64,000 bases of DNA, from the NCBI RefSeq assembly GCF_003675875.1, contig NZ_RCDI01000001.1:868001-932000 (forward strand), written 5' to 3'. How positions within the stretch are numbered: the stretch's first letter is position 1; each line of letters begins with the position of its first letter. The notes under the pieces were generated by a model. That model was not told the origin of the DNA. It ran no database searches and saw nothing but the letters and a program-made list of their open reading frames with translations. The stretch is from Halostella limicola. Its GTDB lineage: Archaea > Halobacteriota > Halobacteria > Halobacteriales > Natronoarchaeaceae. Both the position numbers and the translations under genes were made by a program. Shown here piece after piece: positions 33,452 to 35,820 of this stretch.

Positions 33452-35092
33452 CTACTGGTACCGGCCGCGCCCCTCGACCGCGCGCAACTGGTCGAGGACC
33501 GCGTCGTCGCCGCGCTCGGCGTACGCCGCCTCGAACGCCGCCCGGAGCGGGGCGGGGTCGTCGGCCGTCCCGTCGACGCTCTGCTCGAAGACGTGCAGGT
33601 CCATCGCGAAGTCCTCGGCGTCGTCGGTGTAGTAGCCCAGGCCGAAGTCGATGAGGTACGTGCGCTCGCCGTCGACGCGGACGTTGCGGGTGGTCGGGTC
33701 GCCGTGGACGAACCCTGCCTCGTGGATCGCCGCGAGGTGGCGGCCGACGTCCCGAACGCGGTCCACGGAGAGCGCCGCCTGCAGGTCGGCGTCGCCGACG
33801 GTCTGGAGGACGAGCGTCCCCTCCCGAACGTCGACGTCCCGAACGACCGGCGTGGGGACGCCCTGCCGCCGCGTGGCGCTCGTGAGGCGCGCTTCGAGCA
33901 CGGTGCGGTCCCGGCGGAGCCGGTCGTCCAGGTCGGGATGGCGGTACGCCTTCGGCACGCGGCGCTTCGTCACCCGGTCGTCGCCGACCTCGACGACCGC
34001 CTCGGCTCCCTGCCGCTCGCGGCCCTCCGGCGGCTGTCGGCGGACGCTCTCGCCGGCGCGCCAGGTCACGGGGACCTGGTCCGGCCGGAAGTCCGGGCGG
34101 ACCCGGGACTCTTCGACCGCGATCGTGTCGCCCGCCTCGTACATCGTCGCGCCGAGCACCGCGATCATCCCGGCGTTGTCGCGGAGAAAGCGCGGTTCGG
34201 GCGCGTAGAACTCGGCGCCGCGCTGCTCGCACATCGCGGCGAGCATCTCCCGGAGGCGGTCGTTCTGCCCGACGCCGCCGCCGAGGACGAGTTCGTCGCT
34301 CCCAGTGAGCGACAGCGCGCGCTCGGCGACCTCGGTGAGCATCGCGAAGACGTTCTCCTGCAGGGAGAAACAGACGTCCTCGACGGCCTCGCCGTCGTTC
34401 TCAGAACTCTTCGAGTTCTGATGTGCTCGGGAATCGCCATGCGATTCCCGACCGTCGACCGCCTGCTTCGCGGCGCTCATGATCCCCGAGAAGGAGAAGT
34501 CCATCCCCTTCACGACGTACGGCAGGTCGATCAGGTCGCCGCCCTTCGCGCGCTCCTCGACCTTCGGCCCGCCGGGGTGTGACCAGCCGAGGTGGCGGGT
34601 GAACTTGTCGATGGCGTTGCCGACGCCGGTGTCCATCGTCTCGCCGAGCACGCGGTACCGGCCGTCGTGGAACCCGAGCACGTGGGCGTTCGCGCCGCTG
34701 GCGTTCAGACACACCGGCGAGTCGAACCCCGACCGGTGGCGACCGATCTCCAGGTGGGCGACCATGTGGTTGACGCCCACCAGCGGCACGTCGAGCGACT
34801 GCGCCAGCGCGCGGGCGGCCGTGCCGACGGTACGCAGGCACGGTCCGAGGCCGGGCCCGCGCGAGAAGGCGACCGCGTCGATGGGGCCGTCCGCGTGGTC
34901 GAGCGCGGTCTCGACCACCTCGGGAATGGCCTTCGACATGTGCTCGGCGGCCTCGCTCGGGTCGATGCCGCCGCTCTGGGGCTGGTAGGGGTCCGTCTCG
35001 ATAAACGTGGTATCGGTCTCGGCGTCGTACACCGCGGCGCTCGCGGCCCACGCGGTGCCCTCGATGCCGAGGACGCGGAGGTCGCCGCTCAC
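33452..35092 (-). CDS. bifunctional Kae1-Bud32: tRNA threonylcarbamoyltransferase / protein kinase (KEOPS)
   Basis: A 546-residue fusion. The N-terminal ~325 residues are Kae1, which transfers threonylcarbamoyl to A37 of ANN-decoding tRNAs: LGIEGTAWA, GVNHMVAHLEIGRH (HxxxH metal site) and LGGGVGQN. The C-terminal ~205 residues are the Bud32 kinase/ATPase: Lys of GDDRVTKRRVPKAYRHPD, FVHGDPTTRN and LIDFGLGYY. This fusion is found in many euryarchaea. An unusual 50-bp palindromic insert adds ESHGDSRAHQNSKSSE within the Kae1 part (about residues 214-230). Follows rps27ae in the cluster. Confidence 0.95.
   Translation of the reverse strand: MSGDLRVLGIEGTAWAASAAVYDAETDTTFIETDPYQPQSGGIDPSEAAEHMSKAIPEVVETALDHADGPIDAVAFSRGPGLGPCLRTVGTAARALAQSLDVPLVGVNHMVAHLEIGRHRSGFDSPVCLNASGANAHVLGFHDGRYRVLGETMDTGVGNAIDKFTRHLGWSHPGGPKVEERAKGGDLIDLPYVVKGMDFSFSGIMSAAKQAVDGRESHGDSRAHQNSKSSENDGEAVEDVCFSLQENVFAMLTEVAERALSLTGSDELVLGGGVGQNDRLREMLAAMCEQRGAEFYAPEPRFLRDNAGMIAVLGATMYEAGDTIAVEESRVRPDFRPDQVPVTWRAGESVRRQPPEGRERQGAEAVVEVGDDRVTKRRVPKAYRHPDLDDRLRRDRTVLEARLTSATRRQGVPTPVVRDVDVREGTLVLQTVGDADLQAALSVDRVRDVGRHLAAIHEAGFVHGDPTTRNVRVDGERTYLIDFGLGYYTDDAEDFAMDLHVFEQSVDGTADDPAPLRAAFEAAYAERGDDAVLDQLRAVEGRGRYQ
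34402..34451. repeat. double triloop-hairpin insert within kae1-bud32
   Basis: Two back-to-back perfect inverted repeats lie inside the coding sequence: cagaactc-ttc-gagttctg (34402-34420, 8-bp stem) and tcgggaatcgc-cat-gcgattcccga (34427-34451, 11-bp stem), each with a 3-nt loop. They keep the reading frame and encode a polar loop between AVDGR and the conserved EAVEDVCFSLQE block. Confidence 0.85.
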
Positions 35093-35680: not shown

Positions 35681-35739
35681 GGAGCGAGCGAATCTCTCGC
35701 CCCGAAAAGCTCGCCCCGAAAAACTCGGGGCCTCGCTCC
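35681..35739. repeat. structured intergenic region upstream of rps24e
   Basis: ggagcgag (35681-35688) pairs perfectly with ctcgctcc (35732-35739). Inside this are two direct copies of tcgccccgaaaa at a 14-bp period (35697, 35711) and a smaller hairpin ccccga-aaaac-tcgggg (35714-35730). It lies between the dephospho-CoA kinase gene and rps24e, and could be a terminator, attenuator or repeat remnant. Confidence 0.6.
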
Positions 35740-35820
35740 GTTCGGCCGCGCGAACCGCTCACTTCGTTCGCGGGTGTTCCGTGCAGTTGACAACCGCTCC
35801 GCGGTGATGGACACGAACCG

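Follow-up and report, generated by a model that had tools for sequence, protein, structure and literature searches.

The kae1-bud32 fusion gene of the haloarchaeon Halostella limicola, which acts in tRNA t6A synthesis, is interrupted in frame by a 57-bp insert made of two hairpins. This insert is very probably a copy of a mobile element. As a whole explanation, we hold with considerable confidence that it represents a haloarchaeal two-hairpin miniature mobile element, a counterpart of the Rickettsia palindromic elements and REPs, which is moved in trans. The canonical unit, gene-free and 57 bp long, would read GRCG^T/G-HP1-GCACA-HP2-NGACG^ (^, junction; HP, hairpin) and would insert 3′ of GRCG; selection would keep only in-frame copies, in tolerant loops.

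An in-frame two-hairpin insert in kae1-bud32

The window analysed is a stretch of 64,000 nucleotides (contig NZ_RCDI01000001.1 of assembly GCF_003675875.1), in which kae1-bud32 occupies positions 33452-35092 of the reverse strand. The open reading frame matches Pfam TsaD (2.5e-72) and the best solved relative of its product is the methanogen Kae1-Bud32 structure 3EN9 (E 8.6e-114). Against its counterparts in eight other members of the family, the gene aligns along its whole length save at the insert. The sister species carries the same insertion with one stem mismatch; in three congeners and four other family members exactly 57 bp are missing at this site, and 3EN9 displays the identical 19-residue gap. 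The first-pass annotation had predicted an in-frame insertion and suggested checking it against close relatives. The residues are absent from the seven relatives just mentioned and the insertion stands; its extent, given as 34402-34451 and about 17 residues, is corrected by the alignment to 34396-34452, that is 57 bp and 19 amino acids.

The nearest empty relatives read GTCGACGACG. The ancestral site was therefore presumably GTCGACG^ACGGCGAGG, with the insert taking the form G-HP1-GCACA-HP2-GAACG. On the reverse strand, the target GACG (34453-34456) lies directly 5′ of the insert and pre-exists in the empty site. Hairpin 1 (34427-34451), TCGGGAATCGC-ATG-GCGATTCCCGA, has a perfect 11-bp stem; the spacer GCACA (34422-34426) separates it from hairpin 2 (34401-34421), TCAGAACTC-GAA-GAGTTCTGA, whose stem is a perfect 9 bp; the right end GAACG (34396-34400) is GGACG in the sister species. 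The back-to-back perfect inverted repeats with 3-nt loops described in the first-pass annotation are thus present, with the 11-bp arm as given and the other arm 9 bp instead of 8. Together both inverted repeats encode the peptide GRESHGDSRAHQNSKSSEN. The 21-nt palindrome gave no chance match in 100 dinucleotide shuffles, up to three mismatches being allowed. An AlphaFold prediction for the protein, with a mean pLDDT of 44, is too poor to interpret.

Two side observations concern this gene and its surroundings. In the metagenome-assembled genome of the sister species (G004, L125/L126, C20:224987-226575), the Kae1 and Bud32 parts match as two overlapping pieces in different frames; the cause could be a frameshift, a gene split in two or an error of assembly. 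In the window, a weak match (35722-35783, reverse strand, 26 bits, E 0.0018) to a second palindrome class, called B below, lies upstream of kae1, some hundreds of bases from its start and near a small ribosomal-protein-like gene; it may be another palindromic element.

Covarying structure across haloarchaea

A DNA search of the window genome returned a second copy, with the same layout and different stems, in frame in another gene. The 13-nt core CGAGCACATCAGA, searched in 392 haloarchaeal genomes, retrieved more true copies amid chance hits. When named genomes were scanned with a narrow consensus pattern, just seven loci came up, one of them in Halogranum amylolyticum. A covariance model was then built from seven copies, including the window copy, which as one of the seeds scores 86 bits against it. 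This model matches 346 of the 392 genomes at E ≤ 0.01, the E-values being rough and the copy counts per genome (13 candidates scored in each) being lower bounds. In a phylum-wide draw, 49 haloarchaeal genomes match at E ≤ 0.001, and outside the order three weak matches appear among about 240 genomes (best E 3e-5).

Across 69 distinct copies, structure, spacer and right end are kept and stem sequence is not. Both stems covary: 97.4% of cells pair, compensatory changes on both sides occur at 19 of the 20 pairs, and covariation scores 0.554, whereas shuffled pairings reach 0.160 and slid ones stay below 0.10. As the alignment was fitted to the model, these figures are tilted in its favour, though the margin is wide. 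Most stems measure 9-11 bp, and stems start with TC or CC; most loops have 3 nt, and the unit spans 54-63 bp. The spacer is GCACA in 33 copies and GCCCA in 14, and the right end is GGACG in 49. The same palindromic unit, which the first-pass annotation proposed to look for elsewhere, is thus found in other genes of the window genome and throughout haloarchaea, with covarying stems.

Similar hairpins could also be born locally and independently, by template switching during replication, and palindromes are indeed many in GC-rich haloarchaeal genomes. Copies at unrelated loci, however, have spacer, right end and length in common, and the 13-nt core itself recurs at unrelated loci, so that local birth is a very improbable origin of the family.

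Insertions in unrelated genes and in IS605 transposons

Comparison of filled and empty genes revealed insertions elsewhere, each empty in relatives: 54 bp in frame in purK, 54 bp in frame in a ribonucleotide reductase gene, and 105 bp in frame in a DHH/OB-fold gene, where one unit is accompanied by 48 bp. Further coding copies, recognized by Pfam and context, reside in genes for NAD(P)H-hydrate dehydratase, short-chain dehydrogenase, aldehyde dehydrogenase and cytochrome oxidase. Pfam domains span the insert in the first three of these and in ribonucleotide reductase.

Transposons are also hosts. One genome (G080) contains three copies of one IS605 transposon, whose tnpB is empty in one copy and holds 60 bp in frame in the other two, with GGCG at the left and GACG at the right junction. 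Filled and empty copies in one genome support past mobility, and in this sense the earlier wording ‘actively spreading’ can be followed. The left end of many IS605-type elements holds a copy as well, at times with nested inverted copies, and the unit also seems to land in hairpin loops. We considered whether the unit could be the omega-RNA of TnpB or a native IS605 end. Both were ruled out, because TnpB transposons occur with and without the unit, and because the unit, in either orientation, lies in their left end or within tnpB.

Several details of individual loci deserve mention. The extra 48 bp in the DHH gene (L127, ~1680-1790) resemble a second, degenerate palindromic piece. In the short-chain dehydrogenase gene, units with different stem sequences sit at the identical place in two genomes (L057 and L063, both 1501-1566). 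At IS605-type left ends (L111 443-634, L112), copies are nested in opposite orientation and each GACG end seems to provide a new target. Intergenic copies of the window genome (L075, L076 and L080, near 1501) occupy the tip of a larger palindrome, GAAAGCCCT..GACG^unit^..GCCCTTTC.

Coding capacity

The length of coding copies is a multiple of three in 16 of 16 cases, against 29 of 40 for the others (p = 0.016). Of 56 copies, 48 have no stop codon in the frame that kae1 uses. Proteins are left intact since 57 = 3 × 19 and most frames through the unit are stop-free. The encoded peptide is polar, with the pattern DGRxSxxDxRAHQNxxxSED; it is probably a tolerated loop, a by-product without function.

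Strong hairpins on the mRNA strand could alternatively serve as a splice signal of an RNA intron or processed RNA element, in which case the peptide would not be made; archaeal bulge-helix-bulge introns do exist in some mRNAs. We find this hardly credible, as coding copies are all multiples of three and stop-free in frame, a constraint that introns do not have. Moreover, copies in tnpB genes lie antisense, and no Rfam family reaches the cut-off for the two-hairpin unit.

Repeated occupation of the Kae1 loop

To take a census of this site, kae1 without its insert was searched in the 392 haloarchaeal genomes. It matched in 387, with 28 split matches, i.e. about 7% of the 387 loops are occupied; the unsplit matches listed all span 339-342 bp and hence have no insert. 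The 26 other split matches that were read have, at this very position (KQAxD^), inserts of about 45-70 bp. Most belong to the second palindrome class (B), GACG^GCGT-CTCCGCGAGCGAAGCGAGCGGAG-GCTCG-TCGGAC..GTCCGACG^, which shares the layout of the two-hairpin unit described above (class A), also covaries, and is found elsewhere adjoining class A copies. The inserts also include a few degenerate ones and one in which no palindrome is visible. In Halogranum amylolyticum, it is a class A unit that occupies the site. We assume that one mechanism would move both classes. A third type of palindromic insert, APSTGNRDSKSSGDAVDSG, was noticed at the same loop (L208, L210, family f14).

On a gene tree of 98 kae1 sequences, in which filled genes were over-sampled, the filled state requires 23 changes, at least 16 of them forced by well-supported branches, gains and losses not being separable by parsimony. 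This last point, together with the filling of the same loop in many families, would suit an ancestral Kae1 loop lost many times. Such a history is nevertheless improbable: the inserts fall into different sequence classes, congeners of filled genomes are empty, the methanogen structure is without insert, and other genes and the IS605 pair prove that the unit has inserted independently. The first-pass annotation had itself named conservation of the peptide in Kae1 of many haloarchaea as the sign of an ancestral loop; the occupied loops turn out to be few and dispersed on the tree, and most differ in sequence. Repeated insertion is thus the preferred reading, and the GRCG present in the loop in 64 of 69 empty sites would have helped to make it a hotspot.

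Tiny mobile DNA has repeatedly given haloarchaeal proteins new loops. We lean, by a little, towards a broader view, in which an archaeal superfamily of double-hairpin elements, defined by structure and fluid in sequence, comprises at least two classes of one layout, is spread among haloarchaeal genomes by a hairpin-directed enzyme and is a continuing source of protein loops, the kae1 loop being recurrently hit.

Junctions and mode of movement

Positions -4 to -1 of the 69 copies read GGCG in 23, GACG in 18, AGCG in 10 and GTCG in 6, and the right end is GGACG or TGACG in 57. Since left flanks vary and the right end is fixed, GACG belongs to the element. A target-site duplication of GACG as a general rule was rejected, since many copies that end in GACG have GGCG or AGCG as their left flank; no dinucleotide but CG is regularly common to both junctions. 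The junctions fit either IS200/IS605-like joining without duplication or a 2-bp CG core.

Because the junctions show no proper target duplication, we propose a single-strand movement of HUH/REP type. A hairpin-recognising enzyme would act on the unit, and the hairpins would most simply be recognised as single strands, as by IS200/IS605 (HUH) or REP-associated transposases. We infer the HUH-like step only tentatively, as the search for a mobiliser in ten copy-bearing genomes found none: Y1 transposase (PF01797) is present in six and absent from four, one of them 99% complete, and the IS605 (Y1) elements inspected in genome G080 have ends that differ from those of the unit. Pattern scans of viral contigs found no carrier of the unit. 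Hairpin 1 starts 1 nt from the left junction, which leaves no room there for an IS608-like guide.

The same element might instead be moved by a CG-core recombinase (serine, IS607-like) or by a DDE enzyme with a 2-bp CG duplication. CG as the sole dinucleotide common to both junctions in nearly all copies, and the lack of Y1 transposases in some copy-bearing genomes, would agree with this. On the other hand, a CG core would need neither so long a right end as GACG nor so long a target as GRCG, and no feature is better conserved than the paired hairpins, a pattern in line with single-strand recognition. We therefore regard such a mover as rather unlikely.

Relation to known palindromic elements

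In-frame coding palindromes are already known from Rickettsia and other bacteria. Here they are nearly ubiquitous among haloarchaea, with clean empty sites, a target and a right end that are fixed, and over two dozen Kae1 loops occupied. The open-access literature searched yielded no account of haloarchaeal palindromic elements inserted in frame. Our results suggest that polar loops of haloarchaeal proteins, such as ‘RAHQN’ or ‘SEASGGSSD’, can be mobile DNA and not conserved function. Which enzyme moves palindromes ended by CGTC/GACG, and whether such inserts matter for protein evolution, can be tested in tractable archaea such as Haloferax and Halobacterium.

Rickettsia palindromic elements (RPEs) are small mobile palindromes that sit in frame in numerous unrelated genes, where they encode a tolerated peptide (PMC10969869, PMC3733652). 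The haloarchaeal unit is likewise palindromic, dispersed in unrelated genes and inserted in frame, and the likeness drawn in the first-pass annotation is supported by these dispersed copies, the empty sites and the covarying stems. By description, however, RPEs are bacterial and about 150 bp long, whereas the haloarchaeal unit measures 54-63 bp and consists of two adjacent hairpins.

CGTC-tagged REPs include RPE-4, RPE-6 and Neisseria dRS3, and a dedicated transposase is not known for them (Di Nocera et al. 2013, PMC3733652). The right end GACG of our unit is CGTC on the other strand, next to a hairpin, and both kinds have intragenic copies. Yet these REPs are described in bacteria, with 8-9 bp stems starting with AT, 4-5 nt loops and a CCA-like tail (PMC3733652), a definition from which the haloarchaeal unit departs. 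Its hairpins form a fixed two-hairpin unit, whereas the REPs form head-head dimers with both tags outside.

Closer in host are the Haloquadratum SMR-A/B, which, according to PMC3119063, are 80-110 bp long (SMR-A about 110 bp) with inverted terminal repeats. Like the 57-bp unit, they are haloarchaeal and transposase-free; they insert without target duplication and land in IS605-type transposons and palindromes. Compared by description, our copies do occur in IS605 left ends, as SMR-A targets, but are 57 bp long; they insert in frame in coding sequences, of which the passages of PMC3119063 consulted make no mention for SMRs. The same text describes PATEs, or terminal-only IS200-IS605 derivatives, with near-terminal palindromes, no target duplication and possibly mobile forms of 52 bp. 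In PATEs the ends correspond to those of IS605, whereas the ends of the unit differ from those of the IS605 elements inspected in G080. As to insertion 3′ of a short target, the unit shows GRCG on the left and GACG on the right, with which a 2-bp CG duplication is also compatible. Since it departs from RPEs and CGTC-tagged REPs in the size or stems that define them, and by its length apparently from SMRs, we set the haloarchaeal two-hairpin unit apart as a new variant and not as a member of these groups.
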